The notes beneath the pieces were generated by a model that was given only the letters and a program-made list of their open reading frames with translations, was not told the origin of the DNA and ran no database searches. A stretch of DNA of 64,000 nucleotides from Stutzerimonas stutzeri (GTDB taxonomy: Bacteria; Pseudomonadota; Gammaproteobacteria; Pseudomonadales; Pseudomonadaceae). The stretch covers positions 1,612,001-1,676,000 of the forward strand of contig CP077641.1 of assembly GCA_019056435.1 (NCBI GenBank). Reading direction: 5' to 3'. Made by a program: the position numbers and the translations under genes. Below, piece by piece: positions 1,189-52,188 of this stretch; the stretch's first letter is position 1, and every line of letters begins with the position of its first letter.

Positions 1189-4100
1189 ATGTCCAGATTC
1201 TTTATCGACCGGCCCATTTTTGCCTGGGTGATCGCACTGGTCATCATGCTGGCGGGCACGTTGTCCATCCTGTCCTTGCCGGTTCAGCAGTATCCCAGCA
1301 TCGCGCCGCCTGCGGTCGGCATCTCGGTGAACTACCCGGGTGCGTCGGCGCAGACCGTGCAGGATACGGTGGTGCAAGTCATCGAGCAGCAGCTGAACGG
1401 CATCGACGGCCTGCGCTACATGTCTTCGGAGAGCAATTCCGACGGCAGCATGACCATCACCGTGACCTTCGAGCAGGGTACCGACCCTGACATCGCACAG
1501 GTCCAAGTACAGAACAAGCTGCAGTTGGCCACGCCACTGCTGCCGCTGGAAGTGCAGCAGCAGGGCATTCGGGTGACCAAGGCGGTACGCAACTTCCTGA
1601 TGGTCATCGGCGTGGTATCCACGGACGGCAGCATGACCCGTGGCGACCTTTCGGACTACATCGTTTCCAACATTCAGGATCCCATTTCGCGTACCTCGGG
1701 CGTGGGTGACTTCCAGGTATTCGGTTCGCAGTACGCCATGCGGATCTGGCTCGACCCGGCCAAGCTGAACAACTTCGCGCTGACGCCAAGCGACGTGGGG
1801 CAGGCGATCGAAGCGCAGAACGTCCAGGTGTCCGCGGGGCAGTTCGGTGGCCTGCCAGCCGTGCCGGGGCAGCAGCTGAGTGCAACGATCATCGGCAAGA
1901 CACGTCTGCAGACGCCGGAGCAGTTCCGCGAGATCCTGCTGAAGGTCAATAGCGACGGTTCGCAGGTACGCCTGGGGGATGTCGCCCGGGTCGAGCTGGC
2001 GGAGCAGAGTGCGGCGATCAGCGCCCTCTACAACGGCATGCCGGCCTCCGCCATGGCGATCAAGCTGGCAACGGGCGCCAACGCGCTGGACACCGCCAAT
2101 GCGGTGCGCGCGACTATCGAGGAGCTGAAGCCGTTCTTCCCGGCCGGGATGGAAGTCGTCTATCCCTACGACACCTCTCCGGTGGTGTCGGCTTCGATCA
2201 CGGGCGTGGTCCATACCTTGTTCGAGGCCATCGCGCTGGTCTTCCTGGTGATGTACCTGTTCCTGCAGAATTTCCGCGCCACCTTGATCCCGACGCTCGC
2301 CGTACCGGTGGTTCTGCTCGGGACGTTTGGCGTCCTTGCGGCGTTCGGCTTCAGCGTCAACACGCTCACCATGTTCGCCATGGTTCTGGCGATCGGCCTG
2401 CTGGTGGATGACGCCATCGTCGTGGTGGAAAACGTCGAGCGGGTAATGGCCGAAGAAGGGCTGTCGCCTCGCGAGGCGACGCGCAAATCCATGTCGCAGA
2501 TTCAGGGCGCGCTCGTCGGTATCGGGCTGGTGCTATCGGCCGTATTCGTGCCCATGGCTTTCTTCGGTGGTTCGACGGGCGTGATTTACCGGCAGTTTGC
2601 AATCACCATCGCCTCGGCCATGACGCTGTCGGTGCTGGTCGCGCTGATTTTCACCCCAGCGCTCTGCGCCACACTGCTCAAGCCCATCGCCAAGGGGCAG
2701 CATCACGAAAAGCGCGGTTTCTTCGGCTGGTTCAACCGAACCTTCGAGCGTGGCGTGGGTGGCTACGAGAAAGGCGTGCGCAGCGTGCTCAAGCGCAAGA
2801 TTCCGTTCCTGCTGCTGTACGGTGTGATCGTTGCGATCATGGCGGTGCTCTTCACCCGGCTGCCCAGCTCGTTCCTGCCTGATGAGGACCAGGGTGTGCT
2901 GTTCGTCCAGGTCCAGACGCCAGCCGGCTCGACCGCCCAGCGCACCCAGCAGACGATCGATGCGATGCGTGAGTACCTGTTGAAGGAAGAATCGGATGTG
3001 GTGAAGTCCGTGTTCACCGTAACCGGCTTCAACTTTGCCGGGCGCGGGCAGAATTCGGGCCTGGCGTTCATCGGCCTGAAACCCTGGGATGAGCGCACCG
3101 GCGAAGGTCAGGACGTTGCGTCCCTGGCCCAGCGTGCCCAGGCTCGCTTCGCCTCGTTCCGCGACGCCATGGTGTTCGCCTTTGCGCCGCCGGCGGTAAT
3201 GGAGCTGGGTAACGCCACGGGCTTCAACCTGTTCCTCCAGGACCGGGCGGGCGTTGGCCATGATGTGCTCATGAATGCGCGCAACCAGTTTCTCGGACTG
3301 GCGGCCGAGCACCCCGCCCTGGCTGGGGTGCGCCCCAACGGACTTAACGACGAACCGCAATATCAGCTCCAGATCGATGACGAGAAGGCGCGGGTGCTGG
3401 GGGTCTCGCTGAGCGCGATCAACCAGACCCTGTCGATCGGCTGGGGTTCGAGCTATGTCAATGACTTCATCGACCGGGGTCGCGTCAAGCGGGTGTACAT
3501 GCAGGGCGAAGCCAGTGCCCGGATGAACCCCGAGGACCTCGACAAGTGGTACGTACGCAACGACGCCGGCGAGATGGTGCCGTTTAGCGCCTTTGCCAGT
3601 GGCGAATGGGTCTATGGCTCGCCCAAACTGTCGCGCTACAACGGCGTCTCGGCAATGGAGATTCTCGGTCAGGCGGCTCCGGGCTACAGCTCCGGCGATG
3701 CCATGGCCGCTGTAGAGGAGATCGCGCAAAAGCTGCCTCAGGGGGTGGGTATCTCCTGGACGGGCCTGTCCTACGAGGAACGGTTGTCGGGCGATCAGGC
3801 TCCGGCGCTGTACGCCTTGTCCTTGCTGGTGGTGTTCCTCTGTCTGGCAGCACTGTACGAAAGCTGGTCGATTCCGTTTGCCGTCATGCTCGTGGTGCCA
3901 CTGGGTGTGATCGGTGCGCTGCTGGCGACGCTGGGGCGTGGTTTGTCGAACGACGTGTTCTTCCAGGTCGGTCTGCTGACGACCATCGGCCTCACCGCGA
4001 AGAACGCGATCCTGATCGTCGAGTTCGCCAAGGATCTGCATGAGGAGGGTATGAGCCGATTCGATGCCGCGGTACAGGCTTGCCGCATGCGACTCCGTCC

Positions 4101-15253: not shown

Positions 15254-15284
15254 CGCCAGCCAACCCTTGCGGAGTTACCCAGCA

Positions 15285-16213
15285 GTGCAGCCTGTGATAT
15301 CCATCGAGAAGCTGAGCAAGACCTACGCGTCGGGCCATCCGGCGCTCAAACAGATCGACCTCGAGATCCGCAAGGGCGAGATATTCGCCCTGCTCGGCCC
15401 CAATGGGGCGGGCAAGACCACGCTGATCAGCATCATTTGCGGCATCGTCAACCCTGGCGGGGGCGCGTGCTGGTCGACGGCTTCGACATCGTCGGGGATT
15501 ACCGCGACGCGCGCTCGAAGATCGGCCTGGTGCCGCAAGAGCTGTTCAACGAGGGCTTCGAGAGCGTCTGGGCCACGGTGCGTTTTTCCCGCGGACTGTT
15601 CGGCAAGGCGCCGGACGATGCCTACTTGGAAAAGCTGCTGCGTGACCTTTCGCTGTGGGACAAGCGCAAGGCGCGCATCATCGAGTTGTCCGGCGGCATG
15701 AAGCGGCGGGTGATGATTGCCAAGGCGCTGTCCCACGAGCCGAGCATCCTCTTTCTCGACGAGCCGACCGCGGGCGTGGATGTCGAGTTGCGCCGCGACA
15801 TGTGGGAGATGGTCCGCGGCCTGCGCGAGCGGGGCGTGACCATCATTCTCACCACGCACTACATCGAGGAAGCCGAGGAGATGGCCGACCGCATCGGGGT
15901 GATCAGCAAGGGCGAGATCATCCTGGTCGAGGACAAGCAGGAGTTGATGCAAAAGCTCGGCACGAAGCAGCTCACGCTGCACCTGCAGCGACCGCTGGCA
16001 GAGATCCCGACGGAGCTGGCCGGCTACCCGCTGGAGTTGGTCGACGCCGGTAACCAGCTGGTGTTCACCTTCGATGCGCAGCACGAGGACACCGGCATCG
16101 CCGACCTGCTCAAGCGCCTGGCCGAGCACGGCATCGATTTCAAGGACCTGCAGTCGAGTCAGAGTTCACTGGAGGAAATTTTCGTCAGCTTGGTAAAGGG
16201 CAGCCGCACATGA
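15285..16213 (+). pseudogene. ABC transporter ATP-binding protein, YadG type (one-base frameshift)
   Basis: ATPase of an ABC-2 exporter. The first frame has the Walker A block [16 protein letters not shown]. The second has the Q-loop region ([13 protein letters not shown]), the signature [15 protein letters not shown], Walker [13 protein letters not shown] and the H-loop ([13 protein letters not shown]). The two frames meet at a five-base G run (15459-15463); one extra G would restore Gly-Gly-Gly-Arg-Val-Leu-Val-Asp-Gly and one protein of about 309 residues. The GTG at 15285 is the best start (GGAG upstream). Every catalytic motif is intact, so this is more likely a sequencing error than a dead gene. 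The stop overlaps the permease start. Confidence 0.88.
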
Positions 16214-19313: not shown

Positions 19314-19916
19314 TCAATGGATCAGGCTATTGACGCCCATGCCGCAGGACACCAGGCCCAGGCCCAGCAGGAAGAAGCTCGGCACCAACTCCAGCGCCCG
19401 TTGCAGCCCTTCGCGGCTCGCCAACTGGCGGGACACCAGGCTGTAGGTCACCAGCACCGAGATGTCCACCAGCGCCCAGATCGCGATCAGGGTCACCGCC
19501 TGCGGGGCGAAGGGTTGCGCCGGCAGGATGAAGCCGGGCAGGAAGGCGAGGAAGAACAGGATGTCCTTGGGGTTGGACAACCCTACCGCCATGGCACGCC
19601 AGAAGTAATGCGACTGTGGGCGCGGTGCATCCTGGGCGTCGCCGCCACCGCCGCAGAGCCCATCCGCACCGAGCCAGATGAGGTAGAGCCCGCCGATCAC
19701 CTGCCCCCATTCGAGGATGATCGGCTGCATGTCCAGCGCCAGGTAGATCAGCACCAGGGCGGCAATCATCAGCACCTGCGCCGAAAGCACGCCGCCCAGA
19801 ATGGTCCAGGCCGGCCAGCTGCGCCGGGCGTCGGCGATGACCAGCGCGACCACCGGTCCCGGCGAGGCGATCAGCAAGACGACGGCGGCGGCGAAGGCGA
19901 GGTAGGTAGCAGTCAT
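19314..19916 (-). CDS. LysE/RhtB-family amino-acid exporter
   Basis: A 200-residue inner-membrane protein with six predicted helices. The N-terminal family block AAAVVLLIASPGPVVALVIAD is followed by GGLYLIWLGADGL and GLSNPKDILFFLAFLPGF, classic for LysE translocators. Its ATG overlaps the stop of the oxygenase gene (ATGA), so production of the two proteins is coupled. Exported compound unknown; a basic or hydroxylated amino acid is a reasonable guess from the partner enzyme. Confidence 0.88.
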   Translation of the reverse strand: MTATYLAFAAAVVLLIASPGPVVALVIADARRSWPAWTILGGVLSAQVLMIAALVLIYLALDMQPIILEWGQVIGGLYLIWLGADGLCGGGGDAQDAPRPQSHYFWRAMAVGLSNPKDILFFLAFLPGFILPAQPFAPQAVTLIAIWALVDISVLVTYSLVSRQLASREGLQRALELVPSFFLLGLGLVSCGMGVNSLIH

Positions 19917-20806
19917 AGTTCGGTCACCAGTTCGAAAATGCGCGACTGTTTGCCCAGCCGCTCGGTGTAGAACCGCTGGTTGCAACTGGCGAAGGTGCGT
20001 TGCATCCAGCGGTCGTTGCCATCGAAGTGCGCCGTGAAAGGGCTGCGTGCATGCGCGGTGCGACGGTTGTCGATCACCAGCAGATCGCCGCGCCTCATGC
20101 GCACGGGTTCGACGACGTCCCAGGCGATGGTGCGCAGCCGGTCCAGGGCGTGCTGCGCGCGGTCGCTGTAGGCGACCATGAATTGCGGGTCGAAGCGCAG
20201 GAAGGGGGCGTCCGGGTCGCCGTAGAGCACCGTCTGGTGCTTGTCGATGTCGATCCGCTGGTTCTTCTCGCAGGGGCCGTAATCCGAGAGGAAGTTGTAG
20301 GGCTCGTTGAGGAAGAACACCTGGTCTTCATAGGAAAGGCGCTCAAGAATGCGCTCGGCTGAGGCGATGTAGGTGATTGCTTCGGCAGCCGGATCCTGGC
20401 GCAGGCAGAGCAGCAGCAAGTAATCCGGCTGGATGGCATGGAAGGCGTTTTCGGTGTGCAGGTCCAGCTCGGTGTCGAAGCTGTCCGAGGTCGCGGCACG
20501 CGACTGGTTCTGTAGCGGGAAGAAGTTGTTGACGATGGCCCCACCCGACTCCTGCACATAACCGATCGGCTCGCCAAGCAGCGCGGTGGCCTGCAACAGC
20601 AGGCGCTCGCTGCGGGTGTCCGGCTTGTCCAGCGCATGGCGCGAGGCGGGGGTCGGTGGGATCTCGCCGATCTCGGTGTCTTCCAGCAGCAGGAAGCCCT
20701 TGGCGTTGCCGAACAGTTTGAAGTCGAGGATCTGCGCCATCTGCGCCTGACTGAGCCCCCGTGGCGAATGCTGGCAGATAAAAGTTGGTCAAACTCGCGT
20801 GTGGGC
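19913..20806 (-). CDS. Fe(II)/2-oxoglutarate oxygenase, VioC/AsnO-like amino-acid hydroxylase (probable frameshift near start)
   Basis: TauD/clavaminate-synthase-fold oxygenase. The iron facial triad is visible as the HTE of DLHTENAFH and a distal His in NRRTAHARSPF, followed by the 2-oxoglutarate-binding Arg region (RWMQRTF). HTE rather than HTD, followed by AFH, resembles arginine/asparagine beta-hydroxylases (VioC, AsnO). An uninterrupted frame starts only at 20740 (MAQILDFKLF). The best start is ATG 20806 with AGGA upstream, encoding MPTREFDQLLSASIRHGG. It joins the enzyme frame through LSQAQ if one base is added to a five-base C run (20756-20760, plus strand). The reconstructed length is about 298 residues. 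Operon with the lysE-like gene; divergent from a LysR regulator. Confidence 0.82.
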
Positions 20807-20940
20807 ATGTCATCCTTCCCTAGCGTTATGTGCGGCGTAGGCCTTGTTCTGGTGCCGGTGCCATTGCAATGCTGGCCCGGTAGCCGGCGAGTATTGGTGG
20901 GGGGCAGAGGGTTGCAAAATGGAAAAAACGGCCATCTCGG

Positions 20941-20955
20941 ATGAGTTTTACTCAT
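20941..20955. promoter_or_regulatory. LysR-type T-N11-A dyad between oxygenase and lysR genes
   Basis: ATGAGT-TTT-ACTCAT is a perfect interrupted palindrome with the T-N11-A spacing of LysR binding sites. It lies in the 165-bp divergent region. It overlaps the first possible ATG of the lysR gene (20954), which argues for a start downstream. Confidence 0.55.
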
Positions 20956-20971
20956 GCCACCGGTGCCCGGC

Positions 20972-21892
20972 ATGACGGTGCGCATGCCGCCGCTTTACGC
21001 GCTGCGCGCCTTCGAAGTCGCGGCCCGCTTCGGCTCGTTCACACAAGCGGCCGAAAGCCTGTGCATCACCCAGAGTGCGGTGAGCCGCCACGTCAAGACG
21101 CTGGAGGAAAGCCTCGGCTGCCAGCTGTTCGAGCGGCGGGGTTCGCGGCTGGCACTGACCGACACCGGCCGCGTGCTGGCGCAGGAGCTCAAGGCGGGGT
21201 TTCGTACCCTGGAGAATGCCTGCATCGCCGTGACCCGGCAGCGTGATGCGTTACGGCTGAAGGCGCCGTCGACCCTGACCATGCGCTGGTTGCTCGGCGT
21301 GCTGGATGACTTCCATCTGCACCACCCGCAGGATCGCGTCCAGCTCACCAGCGCCTGGATGGACCTCGACGCCGTGGATTTCCACAACGAGCCCTTCGAT
21401 TGCGCGATCCTGCTCGGCCATGGCGGCTTCCCGGCTGACTGGAACCGCGTGAAGCTGTTCGACGAGTGGCTGGTGCCGGTCTGTTCGCCCGGCTTTCAGG
21501 GCGGTGCGCCCTGGACGCTCGAACGTCTAGCCAGCGCCGAACTGATTCATCCTTCACGGGATTGCCGGGACTGGCGCCGCTGGCTCCAGCGGGTCGGCTG
21601 GGTCGATGCCGTGGCGTGGCAGCAGGGCAAACTGTTCGACACGCTGGAGCTGGGGATCTCGGCGGCGGCCCAGGGGCATGGCATCTCCATCGGAGATCTG
21701 GCGCTGGTCGAGGCTGAACTGCAGAAAGGGTCACTGATGCTGCCGTTCGATCAGGCGGTCCGCTCCGGCGACAGCTACTACCTGGTCTGGCCTGCCGGTG
21801 GCGAGACGCCGGTCACCCTGACGCGGATGAAGGAGCACCTGCTGCGGCACCTGCCGGACAGGGACAATCGCGGCATCCGCCTGCTGGAATGA
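20972..21892 (+). CDS. LysR-family transcriptional regulator, GcvA-like
   Basis: N-terminal winged helix with the LysR pattern YALRAFEVAARFGSFTQAAE, LCITQSAVSRHVKTLEE and a LysR substrate-binding domain (TLTMRWLLGVLDDFHLHHP). The MPPLYALRAFE beginning places it in the GcvA subgroup. Starts at 20954, 20972 and 20987 are all possible; I chose 20972, 306 residues, because 20954 lies inside a T-N11-A dyad. It is transcribed away from the oxygenase/exporter operon and is probably its activator, responding to the substrate. Confidence 0.86.
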   Translation: MTVRMPPLYALRAFEVAARFGSFTQAAESLCITQSAVSRHVKTLEESLGCQLFERRGSRLALTDTGRVLAQELKAGFRTLENACIAVTRQRDALRLKAPSTLTMRWLLGVLDDFHLHHPQDRVQLTSAWMDLDAVDFHNEPFDCAILLGHGGFPADWNRVKLFDEWLVPVCSPGFQGGAPWTLERLASAELIHPSRDCRDWRRWLQRVGWVDAVAWQQGKLFDTLELGISAAAQGHGISIGDLALVEAELQKGSLMLPFDQAVRSGDSYYLVWPAGGETPVTLTRMKEHLLRHLPDRDNRGIRLLE

Positions 21893-42987: not shown

Positions 42988-43692
42988 CTACATGAAATTG
43001 GCCTGCTGGCGCTGACGCCAGTTGGCCAGGCGTTGGCTGAGGGTCAACAGATTGTCCACGCCTTGCCGGTGCGCCTTGCTCAGGAGTATCAGCGCCAGCT
43101 CGGCGGTCGCGAGGGCATCGGCGCTGGCGTGGTGGCGCTGCATGACCTGCAGTCCAAAGTGCGCACACCAGTCGTCCAGGCCATTTTGCCGCGGACGGTT
43201 GTCCGGGCAGAGCATCGGGGCAAGCTCGGCGACGTCGAGAAACGGATGGCGCAGCTTGTAGCCGAGGGTCTGCTTCAGCGCTCGGGTTAGCATGCGTTGG
43301 TCGAAGCCGGCGTGGAAGGCCAGGATCGAGCTGTCGCCGACGAACTCCATGAAATCAAGCAGGGCTTCGACCGGATCATCGCCGGCCTCCAGCTCGCTCG
43401 GAGCGATGCCGTGGATCAGCACGCTTTCGCTGATCTTCTGAGCCGGGCGTAGCAGGGTGGACTCGAACTGGTCGCCCAGATCGATACCGCCGTGTGCGAT
43501 CACCACGGCGCCGATGGACAGCACGATGTCCTTGCGCAGATCGAGGCCACTGGTCTCGACATCGAGCACGACGAGCCGCTGTTCTCGAAGCGGTACGGTA
43601 CCCAAAGCGGCTGGCGGTGGCAGCTGATCCCGCCGTTCTAGCTGATCGAGGTCCAGCGCCGGACCTCTTAACCTGAACCAGGGCATGTTCAT
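42988..43692 (-). CDS. DnaQ/PolC-type 3'-5' exonuclease
   Basis: A 234-residue DEDDh exonuclease. Exo I VVLDVETSGLDLRKD, Exo II region ILAFHAGFDQRML and Exo III HHASADALATAELAL are intact, giving all metal ligands. Its start overlaps the stop of the upstream cNMP-CBS-DUF294 gene (ATGA), the arrangement found beside SSS symporters in other pseudomonads. Probably a housekeeping DNA or RNA trimming enzyme or regulator of that partner; the substrate is not shown. Confidence 0.88.
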   Translation of the reverse strand: MNMPWFRLRGPALDLDQLERRDQLPPPAALGTVPLREQRLVVLDVETSGLDLRKDIVLSIGAVVIAHGGIDLGDQFESTLLRPAQKISESVLIHGIAPSELEAGDDPVEALLDFMEFVGDSSILAFHAGFDQRMLTRALKQTLGYKLRHPFLDVAELAPMLCPDNRPRQNGLDDWCAHFGLQVMQRHHASADALATAELALILLSKAHRQGVDNLLTLSQRLANWRQRQQANFM

Positions 43693-45622
43693 AACTGATA
43701 ACGCAGCGCCAGGCTGCTCTGCAGGCGCTGAGCCTGACGGAAGGACTCGCGCAGAATGCGACGATCCAGATGGTTGAGCGTATCCGGGTCGAGCCGGTTG
43801 GAATAGGGCTGGCCCTGGCGAGCCTGCTGCTGATGCTGCTGCATGCGGGTCTGCTGGATGAAATGGTAGGCCTCTTCATAGGCCGCGCCATCCTTTTCGT
43901 CGATGACGCCCTCCGTCACCAGTTGGCGCAGTCGGTCGAGGGTATTGCAAGTGCCGATGCCATGGCCCAGGGCGAGCAGGCGCGCACCGTCGACGAAGGG
44001 CGTCAGGCCCTGCACCTTGAGATCCAGCGTGGCCTTGCCATCGCCTTTGCGCGACACCACGAAGTCGCGGAACCGCCCCACTGGCGGGCGATGGCGCAGG
44101 GCGTTTTCGGCCAGCATGCGTTGGAAAAGCCGATTCTCGGCGATCTCCTCCAGCAGGTAGGCGCGCAGCTGCTCGTAGCCTTCACACGGACCCCAGATCG
44201 CCCGCAGGTCGAAAAAGATGGTGCTGCCGAGCAGATTCTCCGGTGTGGCTTCGCGGATGAAGGTACCGAAGCGGCGCTGCCACTCCTGGCGCGACAGGCA
44301 CAGCTGAGGGTTGCTGGCCATGATGTTGCCCTTGCACAGGGTGAAGCCACAGGTCGCCAGGTCCTGGTTGATGCGTTCGGCCAACGGCAGCAGGCGGCCA
44401 CGGATGTGCGCGGCTTCGGCGGCGTCCTCGGCCTCGAAGAGGATGCCGTTGTCCTGGTCGGTGTGCAGCGTCTGCTCACGTCGGCCCTCGCTGCCGAAGC
44501 ACAGCCAGGTGAAGGGCACGCCGGGATCGCCGAGGTCGGTGATGGCCAGCTCGATCACCCGACAGACCGAGTGGTCGTTAAGGAGGGTGATGATGTGGGT
44601 GATCTGCGTCGAGGACGCGCCGTGGGCCAGCATGTTGTCGACCAGCTGCAGGATACGACTGCGGATGATCACCAGCGTCTCGACGCTATCGGCGTGCGAA
44701 ATCGCCTGCGCCAGGTGTACCAGATCGACCCGTTGCAACGAGAAGAGGTCGCGCTCGGATATCACGCCTCGCAGCAGTCCGTCCTCGACCACGCAGACGT
44801 GTGCGATATGGCGCTCGGTCATGGCGATGGCCGCATCGAAGGCGGTCGCGTCTGGCGGTAGGTGGAAGGGGTCGTGGGTCATGAAGCCGGCGATCGGTGC
44901 CGCCAGGTCAGTGGTGCCGGTGCCGATCACCCGACGCAGGTCGCGCAGGGTAAAGATGCCCTGAGGATGCAGCGCCTCATCGGTGATGACCACGCTGCCA
45001 ACGTTGTTTTCATGCATCAGCCCCACGGCTTCGGCGAGCGGCATCGTCGGCAGGCACGAGACCGGGTGAGGTAGGGCGAGCTCGCCGACCCGCGTTTCCA
45101 GGAGTACTGCTCGCCAAGGCTCTCCACCGCGCGCATCTGCGCCTGTTGGTTCACCAGGTCCAGCAGGCTGCTGACGCCGCGCATGGCAAAGTCGCGGAAG
45201 GAGGCCGACTTGGACACGAGTTTGACGAAGGCCGGCTTGTTCAGCAGGTAGCAGAAGGTGTCTTCAGCGGCGAAATGGCCGGTACGGGTGGCGCGTTCGC
45301 CCATCAGCGCGGCCATCGGGAAGCATTCTCCGACGATCACCTCGAAGGTGGTATCGGTGCCGCGCTTGCTGGTATGCGGCCGCTGACCGTGAACCCGCCC
45401 CTGCTTGACGATATAGAAGTGTTCGACGACGCCGTCGTCCGGCGAAATGATGCAGTCACCTGCGCTGTAGAAGCGCAGCTGGCAGTTCTCCACCAGGTAG
45501 GCCAGATGCCCCGGCTCCATCTGGTTGAACGGCGGATACTTGCGCAGGAACTCCATGGTTCCATGGATGTTCTGCAGCACGGCAGTTTTGCCTGCCTCGG
45601 CGAAAGCATCGGCTTTGCTCAT
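43689..45622 (-). pseudogene. Cyclic-nucleotide-binding/CBS/DUF294 nucleotidyltransferase protein (one-base frameshift)
   Basis: Predicted signalling protein. The N-terminal frame (from ATG 45622, GGAAG upstream) has a cNMP-binding domain with CIISPDDGVVEHFYIVKQGRV. The second frame continues with paired CBS domains (LMHENNVGSVVITDE, GIFTLRDLRRVIG) and a DUF294 nucleotidyltransferase-like domain with FGSEGRREQTLHTDQDNGI. Frames break at 45101-45102. One extra C on the coding strand (Ser-Leu-Glu-Thr instead of Ser-Trp-Lys-Arg) restores one protein of about 644 residues. Domains are all intact, so a sequencing error is likely. Operon with the exonuclease; relatives adjoin acetate-type symporters. 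Confidence 0.87.
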
Positions 45623-45737
45623 GTTGGCTTCCATTTTTTGCGCACAATGGTGGGCTGCAGGTAGGGCGTGGCACATTGGACGTAAGTCTAGTCGCCAGCC
45701 GGTGGGTGCCAGGCTGATGTGCGTCAGCCGGCGACGA

Positions 45738-45790: not shown

Positions 45791-47970
45791 TCAGAGGCCG
45801 TTCTTGGCCTTGAATTCGCGGCGGCGACGGTGCAGGACCGGCTCGGTATAGCCGTTGGGCTGCTTGGTGCCTTCGAGGACCAGCTCCAGCGCGGCCTGGA
45901 AGGCGACGTTGTTGTCGAAGTCCGGGGCGAGCGGGCGGTAGGTCGGGTCGCCAGCGTTCTGGCGATCGACCACCGGGGCCATGCGCTTGAGGCTTTCGAT
46001 GACCTGCTCCCGGGTGACCACGCCATGACGCAGCCAGTTGGCCATGTGCTGGCTGGAGATGCGCAGCGTGGCGCGATCTTCCATCAACGCGACGTCATTG
46101 ATGTCCGGCACCTTGGAGCAGCCGACGCCAGCATCGATCCAGCGGACCACGTAGCCGAGGATGCCCTGGGCGTTGTTGTCCAGCTCGTTGCGCTTTTCCT
46201 CCTCGCTCCAGTCGGTGCGGGGTGCCAGCGGGATGGTGAGGATGTCGTCGACAGAGGCCTTCTCGCGCTTGGCGAGCTCGGCCTGGCGGGTGAAGACGTC
46301 GACCTTGTGATAGTGCATCGCGTGCAGGGTCGCAGCGGTCGGCGAGGGTACCCAGGCGGTGTTGGCGCCAGCCATGGGATGGCCGATCTTCTGCTCGAGC
46401 ATGCTCGCCATCAGGTCGGGCATGGCCCACATGCCCTTGCCAATCTGAGCTTTGCCCTGCAGGCCGCAGGCCAGGCCCACGTCGACGTTGTTGTTCTCGT
46501 AGGCGCTGATCCACTTCTCGGTCTTCATGGCCGCCTTGCGCACGACCGGGCCGGCTTCCATGGACGTGTGGATCTCGTCGCCGGTGCGGTCGAGGAAGCC
46601 GGTGTTGATGAACACCACGCGCTCACGCGCTTCCTTGATGCAGGCCTTGAGGTTGATCGTGGTGCGGCGCTCCTCGTCCATGATGCCCACCTTGAGGGTG
46701 TTGCGCGGCAGACCGAGGACGTCCTCGACACGGCCGAACAGCTCGGTGGCGAAGGCGACTTCTTCCGGGCCGTGCATCTTCGGCTTGACGATGTACATCG
46801 AGCCGGTGCGGCTGTTGGCGCGGGTGGTGTTGCCCTTGAGGTTGTGAATGGCGATCAGGCTGGTGAACAGCGCGTCCATGATGCCTTCGGGCACTTCGTT
46901 GCCGTCCTTGTCGAGGATGGCGTCGTTGGTCATCAGGTGGCCGACGTTGCGGATGAACAGCAGGGAGCGGCCATGCAGGGTCAGCTCGCCGTTGCCGTCG
47001 GCCTGGGTGTAGACGCGGTCCGGGTTCATGGCGCGGGTGATGCGCTTGCCACCCTTTTCCAGCTCTTCGACCAGGTCGCCCTTCATCAGGCCCAGCCAGT
47101 TGCGGTAGACCAGGGTCTTGTCGTCGGCGTCGACGGCGGCGATGGAGTCTTCGCAGTCCATGATGGTGGTCAGCGCCGATTCCATCAGGATGTCCTTCAC
47201 GCCGGCGGCATCGGTCTGGCCGATCGGGCTGGTCGGGTCGATCTGGATTTCGAAGTGGATGCCGTTGTGCTTGAGCAGGACCGCGATCGGGGCGTCGGCG
47301 GCGCCCTGGAAGCCGCGTAGCTGGGCCGGATTCTGCAGGCCGGTGGTGCTGCCGTCCTTCAACGCGACGGTGAGCTTGCCACTTTCGACGCGATAGCCGG
47401 TGGCGTCGGCGTGCGAGCCGGTTTCCAACGGCGCCGCTTCGTCGAGAAAAGCCCGGGCGTAGGCGATGACCTTGTTGCCGCGTATCTCGTTGTAGCCGGG
47501 GCCTTGGTCGCGCCGCCTTCTTCGGAGATGGCGTCGGTGCCGTACAGCGCGTCATACAGCGAGCCCCAGCGGGCGTTAGCGGCATTCAACGCGAAGCGCG
47601 CATTCATGATCGGCACGACCAGCTGCGGGCCGGCCATGCGGGCAATTTCCTCGTCGACGTTCTGCGTGGTGGCCTGGAAGTCTTCGGCTTCTGGCAGCAG
47701 GTAACCGATGTCCTGCAGGAAGGCCTTGTAGGCCACCGGATCGTGAGCCTGCCCGGCGCGAGCCTGGTGCCAGGCATCGATCTGCGCCTGCAGGTCGTCG
47801 CGTTTGGCCAGCAGCGCGCGGTTCTTCGGCGCCAGGTCGTGGATGACGCTGGAAGCGCCGGCCCAGAAGGCATCGGCGTCGACGCCGGTACCAGGAATCG
47901 CTTCGTTGTTCACGAAGTCGTACAGGACTTTGGCGACCTGCAGGCCACCGACTTCAACGCGCTCAGTCAT
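45791..47970 (-). pseudogene. glcB: Malate synthase G (one-base frameshift)
   Basis: Condenses glyoxylate with acetyl-CoA to malate. The N-terminal frame (from ATG 47970; [20 protein letters not shown]) runs to [13 protein letters not shown]. The second frame has [38 protein letters not shown] and [19 protein letters not shown], standard for malate synthase G. The break is at 47498-47503, where one more G (coding strand) would give Thr-Lys-Gly-Pro-Gly-Tyr-Asn as in other GlcB proteins. Total about 726 residues, the normal length. With every motif present, a sequencing error is likelier than loss. Confidence 0.92.
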
Positions 47971-48234
47971 CTCTCGCCTCACTTGATTCTTCATTCCGAC
48001 ACGGACGATTAGGTTCTTGTAGTCCGGGCCGCCGGATACTACATGAAGCCGTTGGGAAAATCAGTCCGCCGGATCGAGGGGTGTTTTGGCTGGCCGCGGG
48101 TGCTCCTGGTGCATATCGGACGCGCATCCGGGAGGCGAACGCGGTAGTTTGTCAGCTGCCTGACGTCCGGGCGCAATCCGCCATACTGAACGGCGCGGCC
48201 GGTGTCGCCGGGCCATCACGAAGAGGAGCCATCG

Positions 48235-49826: not shown

Positions 49827-50594
49827 ATGAAGCTCGAGAACAAGGTTGCGCTGGTCACGGGTGGCTCGCAGGGCATCGGCCGCGGTATTGCCCTGCGGCT
49901 GGCCGAGGAGGGCGCGGACCTGGTCATCAACAGTCGTCACGAGAACGACCAGGCCCGGGAAACGCTCGCGCAGATCCGGGACCTGGGCCGCCGGGCCTGC
50001 TTCATACCGGCGGACGTCGGGGTCGTTGCCGACTGTCGGCGGCTGGTCGAACGGGCCGTCGAGCAGATGGGGCGCCTCGATATCCTGCTCAACAACGCCG
50101 GCGTACAGACTCATGCGTCCTTCCTGGACGCCAGCGAAGAGGACTACGACCAGGTGCTCGACATCAACCTGCGCGGGCCCTTCTTTCTCGCTCAGGCGTT
50201 TGCCCGCCATGTGCGCGACCGCGGGCACCGGGGTCGCATCATCAACAACAGTTCGGTGCACGAAGAGCTGCCGCATCCCAATTTCACCGCCTACTGCGCA
50301 AGCAAGGGCGGCATGAAGATGCTGATGCGCAACATCGCCATCGAGCTCGCGCCGCTGGGCATCACCGTCAACAACATCGCGCCCGGTGCGATCGAGACGC
50401 CGATCAACCGTGACCTGATGAACCAGCCGGAAAAGCTCGACACGCTGCTGCAGAACATTCCTGCCAACCGCCTCGGCCAGCCGCGCGACGTGGCCGGTGC
50501 GGTGGCCTTTCTCGCCTCGGACGACGCCGACTACATCACCGGCGCCACCCTGGTTGTCGACGGTGGCCTGCTATGGAACTACAGCGAACAATGA
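49827..50594 (+). CDS. Short-chain dehydrogenase/reductase, glucose-1-dehydrogenase-like
   Basis: A 255-residue classical SDR. The cofactor motif TGGSQGIGRGIA, NNAGVQ, catalytic Ser in NNSSVHEE and YCASKGG (Tyr-x-x-x-Lys), plus the GAIETPI loop, are intact. The stop overlaps the start of the trehalase gene, so it is probably co-translated with it. Since trehalase makes glucose, glucose oxidation is an attractive but unproven role. Confidence 0.87.
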   Translation: MKLENKVALVTGGSQGIGRGIALRLAEEGADLVINSRHENDQARETLAQIRDLGRRACFIPADVGVVADCRRLVERAVEQMGRLDILLNNAGVQTHASFLDASEEDYDQVLDINLRGPFFLAQAFARHVRDRGHRGRIINNSSVHEELPHPNFTAYCASKGGMKMLMRNIAIELAPLGITVNNIAPGAIETPINRDLMNQPEKLDTLLQNIPANRLGQPRDVAGAVAFLASDDADYITGATLVVDGGLLWNYSEQ

Positions 50595-52188
50595 CCGACA
50601 CCCGCAAAGGCGTCTTCGACTACGACACCCACAGCGTATCGGCTGCCGATACCCTGACCCCGGCCGATCGCTACCAGGAGCTTTTCGTCGCGGTGCAGAC
50701 CGGGCGCGTCTTCAAGGACAGCAAGACCTTCGTCGATTGCGCGCCGCGGATCGATCCCGAGCAGATTCTCGACAACTACCGGACACGCTGCCACGAGCCG
50801 GATTTCGATCTGGTCGCCTTCGTGCATGACCACTTCAGCGTGTTCGAAATGCCGCCCAAGGAGTTCGTCGCCAACCCCAACGATTCTCTCGCCGAGCACA
50901 TCGACCGGCTCTGGCCGGTACTGACCCGCCATCCGAAGCATCATCCAAGGCATTCTTCGTTGCTGCCGCTGCCGCATGACTACGTGGTGCCGGGCGGCCG
51001 CTTCACCGAGATGTACTACTGGGATTCCTACTTCACCATGCTGGGGCTCGATGAAAGCGGGCATTGCGAGCTGCTGCGCGCCATGGCGGACAACTTCGCC
51101 TACCTGATCGACACCTACGGGCACGTGCCCAACGGCAATCGCTCCTACTACCTGAGCCGCTCGCAACCGCCTGTCTTCGCCTTGATGACCGACCTGTTCG
51201 AGGAAACCGGCGTGCACCGCGCCAGCGATTACCTCCCTCAGCTGCTCAAGGAGCATGACTTCTGGACCGAAGGGGCCGACCGCCTGCGCCCCGGTGAGGC
51301 GCACCGACGCTGCATCTGCCTGGCCGATGGCAGTGTGCTCAATCGCTATTGGGACGAGCGCGACACGCCTCGCGAAGAGTCCTACCTCGAGGATATCGAG
51401 ACAGCCCGCTCCTCCAGCCGGCCGGCACACGAGGTCTATCGCGACCTGCGCGCCGGTGCCGAATCCGGCTGGGATTTCAGCTCGCGCTGGCTGGGCGACC
51501 CGACCCGGTTGTCGAGCATTCGCACCACCAACATCCTTCCGGTCGACCTGAACAGCTTTCTCTACTACCTGGAACTCAAGATTGCCCAGCTCAGTGAGGT
51601 CAAGGGCTGGCAAGGTTGCGTCAAGACCTTTCGGGCGCACGCCGAGGCGCGACTGGCGGCGATCGACCGCTACCTGTGGCGTGAAGAGCGCGGCGCATAC
51701 TTCGACTACGACTGGACGCTGCAGGCCGCGCGCGACAACCTCACGGCGGCAACCGTCACGCCGCTGTTCGTCAGGTTGGCCAGCGACCACCAGGCGGCGC
51801 GGGTCGCGGATGTGGTGCGTGACCGTTTGCTGGCGCCGGGTGGCCTGTCCACCACCGAGGTGAGCGGCAGTGGCGAGCAATGGGACCGCCCCAACGGCTG
51901 GGCCCCCTGCAGTGGATGGCGATTCGTGGCCTGCAGCGCTACGGTCACGAGGCCCTGGCGTTGCAGATCGAGGAGCGCTGGCTGAGCATCGTTTCGCACC
52001 TCTACGAGCGCGAGAGCAAGCTGGTCGAGAAATACGTGCTCAGGCCGTGCGTCGAACATGCCGGCGGCGGCGAATACCCCCTGCAGGACGGCTTCGGCTG
52101 GACCAACGGCGTCACCCGCAAGCTCATGCAGGAAGACCCGAGCCACGAAGCGCACCGTTGCCGGGCGGGGCAATGCCGGGTGGATTGA
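50591..52188 (+). pseudogene. treF: Trehalase, cytoplasmic TreF-like (one-base frameshift)
   Basis: GH37 trehalase that hydrolyses trehalose to two glucose. No signal peptide is seen, so cytoplasmic. Signature 1 PGGRFTEMYYWDSYF and signature 2 QWDRPNGWAP are present. The break falls right after signature 2 in a five-base C run (51903-51907). One extra C continues as Leu-Gln-Trp-Met-Ala-Ile-Arg-Gly and on to EYPLQDGFGWTNGVTRKLM, the normal trehalase C-terminus. The restored protein has about 532 residues. All catalytic regions survive, so I favour a sequencing error. Starts within the SDR stop (ATGA). Confidence 0.9.

Follow-up and report, generated by a model that had tools for sequence, protein, structure and literature searches.

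In the window, a 64,000-nucleotide stretch of a Stutzerimonas stutzeri genome, three adjacent genes on balance appear to form a dedicated unit: an Fe(II)/2-oxoglutarate (2OG) oxygenase, here called OX, would hydroxylate a free cationic amino acid, probably at C3, a LysE-family protein would export the product and a LysR regulator would switch the pair. The LysR protein would bind a dyad next to OX and, on sensing the amino acid or its product, turn on OX-lysE. OX would then hydroxylate a free L-amino acid whose side chain is cationic, of Lys or Arg type judging from a pocket with two Asp residues, with attack probably at C3 (the weaker part of the scheme), and the hydroxylated amino acid would leave through the translationally coupled LysE/RhtB-type exporter.

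Gene layout and the OX reading frame

The gene families named in the original prediction, an Fe(II)/2OG oxygenase, a LysE exporter and a LysR regulator, were borne out by Pfam (Table 1): OX matched TauD (E = 9.3e-21), the exporter LysE (3.9e-17; 62.8 bits, cut-off 25.6) and the regulator LysR_substrate (4e-29) as well as HTH_1. Likewise, the predicted coupling of OX and lysE is visible as a 4-bp ATGA overlap of the OX stop and the lysE start at 19913-19916. This overlap is retained in 21 of the 23 relatives listed; in L016 and L024 the start could not be resolved by the same rule. The LysR gene diverges from OX-lysE, and the dyad lies in the gap between them. The start of LysR at 20972 is more likely than that at 20954, since relatives align from about residue 6-10. 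The flanks comprise genes that we take, by sequence recognition, to be metK, tkt and epd, and an ArsR-methyltransferase gene (Pfam).

Table 1. Coordinates of the OX-lysE-LysR locus in the window.
Feature	Position	Strand	Remarks
OX, clavaminate-synthase-like (CSL) Fe(II)/2OG oxygenase	19913..20808	-	Open frame 19913-20740 (275 aa); Pfam TauD
OX iron ligands H and E, codons (HTE; H118/E120 in alignment A1)	20450..20458	-	24/24 aligned sequences
OX distal iron-ligand His codon (H253 in A1)	20051..20053	-	24/24 aligned sequences
LysE/RhtB-type exporter, 200 aa	19314..19916	-	Pfam LysE; start codon within OX stop (ATGA)
Dyad ATGAGTTTTACTCAT, likely LysR operator	20941..20955		Sole exact genomic site
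GcvA-like LysR regulator	20954..21892	+	Pfam HTH_1, LysR_substrate; start more likely 20972

Relatives have a further ~18-23 N-terminal residues that are absent from the 275-aa OX frame. The missing codons are present in another frame, with an ATG near 20808 and a frameshift near 20755; the listed OX relatives of at least 50% identity start about 23 residues earlier in an uninterrupted frame. An assembly error is likelier here than a true pseudogene, because four further window genes are split against the relative G022 (near 15450, 45100, 47500 and 51900; 53 relative ORFs with matches, antisense ORFs counted in) and because genome completeness is 94.3%, compared with 99-100% in most relatives. 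It is highly improbable that OX is dead in the source strain and that only LysE and LysR matter there, as the frameshift itself could suggest, together with two genomes (G051, G037) that lack OX yet retain LysR, LysE and the dyad. Besides the other split genes and the low completeness, the remainder of OX is intact, with a dN/dS of 0.07-0.12 to five close relatives (L002, L004, L005, L006 and L009). Values against four more distant relatives were 0.21-0.48. The split genes, at window positions 15267-16210, 43692-45694, 45794-47991 and 50573-52185, each occupy two frames relative to G022, which suggests assembly indels.

The oxygenase family and its pocket

The nearest matches of OX were clavaminate synthase 3 (5.4e-33), AsnO (4.3e-30) and KDO1 (7.9e-27), in concordance with a profile search. 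Its solved relatives are CAS, AsnO, KDO1, OrfP and VioC, with clavaminate synthases, AsnO and KDO1 ranking before VioC. The predicted HTE...H triad was found (H118/E120/H253) and is present, together with R267 and R271, in all 24 aligned sequences. By homology of the catalytic domain and by the triad plus two Arg, OX is thus a member of the CSL Fe(II)/2OG oxygenases, which upholds its proposed place among free-amino-acid hydroxylases. The label "VioC-like" fits loosely, given the closer clavaminate synthases, AsnO and KDO1. Assignment as a VioC arginine hydroxylase was rejected: OX scored 118.9 bits with the NCBIfam equivalog TIGR03946, whose cut-off is 418.6. Nor is VioC-like arginine chemistry singled out by the pocket, in which the P16 Asp that VioC uses for the guanidinium group is replaced in the sequence alignment by Gln (23/24) or His (one sequence).

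Pocket positions are named after the CSL analysis of PMC6224419. Six of them are constant in 24/24 sequences (A1 numbering): P2 E87, P3 S88, P6 S108, P12 D176, P13 Y177 and P15 D207. P5 is Thr in 15, Asn in five and Ser in four, P14 is variable, and the residue two after P15 is Gln in 23/24. In the available part of PMC6224419, the Asp pair at P12/P15 goes with cationic side chains, the P6 Ser of KDO1 is tied to the substrate carboxylate, Arg at P3 is tied to C4 hydroxylation (KDO5), and Arg at P1 marks another presumed C4 group. KDO1, an L-lysine 3-hydroxylase, belongs to the same family as OX and has in common with it the ligands of iron and 2OG and the main substrate contacts, with Glu at P2, Ser at P6 and the P12/P15 Asp pair; the lid positions are shared in part. 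Of the five KDO1 pocket residues, these four are matched in 24/24 sequences, and the fifth, Ser at P14, varies in OX. The two differ, by alignment, at P3 (Gly in KDO1, Ser in OX), P13 (Glu, Tyr), P14 (Ser, variable) and two residues after P15 (Asp, Gln). A cationic amino acid as the OX substrate is a fair prediction because of the two-Asp pocket, which would be compatible with a side chain of either Lys or Arg type; hydroxylation at C3 is predicted with less weight.

The AF2 model of OX had a mean pLDDT of 66.8, with values below 50 in pocket loops 89-118 and 172-197. Confidence in these loops being too low, pocket residues were mapped by alignment alone. Foldseek with this low-confidence model returned CSL structures as top matches, at a TM-score of ~0.6 and an rmsd of ~8 Å. 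Taken together, the CSL membership, the low-confidence fold match, the invariant pocket residues and a Ser instead of an Arg at P3 argue for the hydroxylate-and-export reading; the differences from KDO1, a P5 Thr in just 15/24 sequences and the poor model at the pocket loops count against it.

The original prediction saw no NRPS genes nearby, a statement that extends to the whole genome: the NRPS condensation domain PF00668 had 0 matches genome-wide, the same search giving matches in 4 of 14 named control genomes. OX is also the one TauD-family protein of the genome. Both observations make a free amino acid the likely substrate.

Exporter, regulator and a parallel unit

The exporter's top NCBIfam model was TIGR00949, and models of RhtB-type homoserine/threonine and leucine carriers led the matches, all below their cut-offs. 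The L-lysine exporter LysE model (TIGR00948) was absent from the five NCBIfam models reported at E<=0.001. By these profiles, the protein appears closer to RhtB-type homoserine/threonine/leucine carriers than to lysine LysE, which would suit a cationic product less well and counts against the hydroxylate-and-export reading.

GcvA (NF008352) was the best NCBIfam model for LysR, at 235.7 bits against a cut-off of 288; the term "GcvA-like" is therefore right as to the nearest model and falls short as a subfamily assignment. The predicted T-N11-A dyad between LysR and OX is present at 20941-20955, and ATGAGTTTTACTCAT is the lone exact copy of ATGAGTNNNACTCAT in the 4.73-Mb genome. Across 49 distinct OX loci, the dyad was exact in 22; a relaxed version occurred in 48, and L046 missed it by one base in one arm. 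A sigma-70 promoter scan of 20740-21010 found 0 sites, with 0.1 expected.

Relatives of the regulator (E<=1e-80) occur in 313 of 398 family genomes. Among 11 hand-picked loci, such LysR genes stood by LysE alone in three, by YqcI/YcgG plus LysE in four and by a MATE pump in four. The proximity of GcvA-like LysRs to MATE pumps was also counted against the hydroxylate-and-export reading. Exact ATGAGTNNNACTCAT was seen in two of the four MATE-linked loci (L098, L100) and was absent from the YqcI-linked loci checked (L096, L097, L101, L102). In the LysR tree, YqcI/MATE-linked regulators clustered (96/92) and joined the L018-L023 OX clade at 91/81. The tree does not fully separate YqcI/MATE-linked from OX-linked LysRs.

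The YqcI/YcgG protein of L096 has relatives (E<=1e-30) in 31/398 family genomes, with LysE and a divergent LysR beside it in 30 of 30 loci. Like the OX trio, this unit flanks an oxygenase with a homologous LysR and a LysE-family exporter; unlike it, the enzyme is an unrelated heme protein, and the exporter is 27-35% identical to that of the window. The YqcI/YcgG family is described as hydroxylating guanidine N-H, and AglA as acting on free arginine only when mutated (available part of PMC12866846). The parallel unit gives a hint of arginine-type chemistry within a related genetic setting, with no implication of the same substrate. LysR-YqcI/YcgG-LysE units were observed at L096:5066-6490 and in L104-L133, from other Pseudomonadaceae.

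Genomic sites, loss of OX and related systems

OX matches were found in 47 of 56 genus (Stutzerimonas) genomes (E<=1e-10), in 56 of 398 family genomes at E<=1e-25, including one with only 37% identity, and in 5 of 398 phylum genomes (E<=1e-20), three of the last within the family and two outside it at 34-35%. LysE lay directly downstream and LysR divergently in 49/49 distinct OX sequences of at least 50% identity. This count covers the fetched loci; in the 12 OX-bearing family genomes outside it, LysR adjoins OX. The three-gene linkage, whose lack in relatives had been named as a refutation of the original prediction, is thus conserved. Together with the dN/dS values of OX, it speaks against a chance arrangement. 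Among distant OX relatives without an intact trio, L068 has an overlapping EamA exporter, L070 a LysE gene nearby and L069 neither.

The trio occupies at least four distinct neighbourhoods. Stutzerimonas and L016/L024 have it at metK/tkt; it lies beside putA in L062 and beside selB and a sodium-solute symporter in L063. In L019 and L022 its neighbours include MacB, an NRPS-type thioesterase and a class III aminotransferase (diaminobutyrate type in L022), and in L017, L058 and L059 it occupies further, less annotated sites. A link of the trio to metK/tkt metabolism was rejected, because genomes without the module (G043, G002, G013, G024) keep ArsR by tkt and other copies sit elsewhere. The linkage, the ATGA overlap, the conserved dyad and these varied neighbourhoods all support the hydroxylate-and-export reading.

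The L019 and L022 copies could also suggest that OX serves secondary metabolism by making either a hydroxylated precursor or an incomplete antimetabolite (compare AMB and IDO/Hil, below), with completion by genes elsewhere; the distant relatives in L068 and L070, in biosynthetic-looking clusters, point the same way. We consider this distinctly unlikely, in a genome without an NRPS condensation domain and with metK/tkt-site flanks that persist where the module is absent. In L022:9652-16761 and L019:10738-16792, the trio lies as if at the edge of a lipopeptide cluster, with a LuxR-type regulator in L022. L068:6031-11964 holds a 36% OX relative with the EamA exporter, an SDR, another putative oxygenase and an amino-acid permease; L070:1602-7429 holds a 35% relative near the LysE gene, a class IV aminotransferase and an argininosuccinate-synthase-like protein.

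The original prediction knew of no described system with this exact composition, a claim that was not supported: the IDO operon, the Hil operons and the AMB cluster come close in logic. The Bacillus thuringiensis IDO operon combines a free L-Ile hydroxylase with a reductase and an RhtA exporter, and Hil operons include a LysR regulator (PMC3684760, in part). The IDO/Hil operons thus share with the trio a free-amino-acid 2OG hydroxylase and an exporter, and the Hil operons LysR as well; in that account they differ by their PF10014/PF13640 oxygenases, the RhtA exporter and the extra reductase and other genes, the trio having three genes in all. Neither PF10014 nor PF13640 was found in OX, for which the Pfam search gave TauD (PF02668) alone. 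The AMB cluster (ambABCDE) of Pseudomonas also joins a LysE-type transporter, AmbA, with two Fe(II)/2OG oxygenases; compared with OX by description, AmbC and AmbD differ in being two, in accompanying two NRPSs and in acting on a carrier-bound substrate (available part of PMC4357302). In Pseudomonas aeruginosa, lysR-lysXE is, by the title of a work cited in PMC12930750, a lysine export operon with a LysE-type exporter under LysR; no oxygenase is named there. Hydroxylase-plus-exporter operons are thus already known; no description of a CSL oxygenase, LysE and LysR alone as a trio was recognised, by title or abstract, in an open-access library.

OX is absent from 9 of the 56 genus genomes, and tkt was located in eight of these. 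The tkt site holds no module in G043, G002, G013 and G024, a LysE remnant in G039, and LysR, LysE and the exact dyad in G051 and G037, which may represent one loss since their LysRs group together in the tree. ArsR was not seen in the G009 stretch at tkt. A LysR-LysE pair with the dyad is also present elsewhere in the genomes G009, G024 and G085. LysR and LysE without OX were found in five loci, so that the regulated exporter looks like the evolutionary core and OX like the part that gets lost. Together with the parallel YqcI/YcgG unit (30/30), these loci also favour the hydroxylate-and-export reading. The loci with LysR and LysE and no OX would also suit detoxification, in which the unit responds to a toxic amino acid or a toxic analogue, such as one of arginine or lysine, OX makes a harmless form and LysE expels it; the related LysRs paired with MATE pumps in the four such loci checked fit this alternative as well. 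We regard detoxification as unlikely: the pattern is just as consistent with non-producers that protect themselves, and most steps are common to hydroxylation and export, with the purpose alone differing.

Speculatively, and a little less doubtfully than detoxification, the trio may be a mobile chemical-interaction cassette, whose secreted product, a hydroxylated cationic amino acid, would serve as an antimetabolite or signal. Self-protection would be a second role of the exporter, and strains with LysR, LysE and the dyad and no OX would be immune non-producers. If so, LysR-LysE would be a chassis for unrelated amino-acid oxygenases in Pseudomonadaceae (CSL; YqcI/YcgG). If the hydroxylate-and-export reading is right, the trio is among the simplest possible routes by which a primary amino acid is modified and secreted, and it is common in Stutzerimonas (47/56). 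The natural series of full unit, exporter without oxygenase and empty site lets production and protection be tested against each other. In two loci that are missing OX (L087, ~3040-3270; L088, ~2240-2500), repeated hairpin-like GCCGAA/TTCGGC units were noticed by eye between the promoter and LysE.
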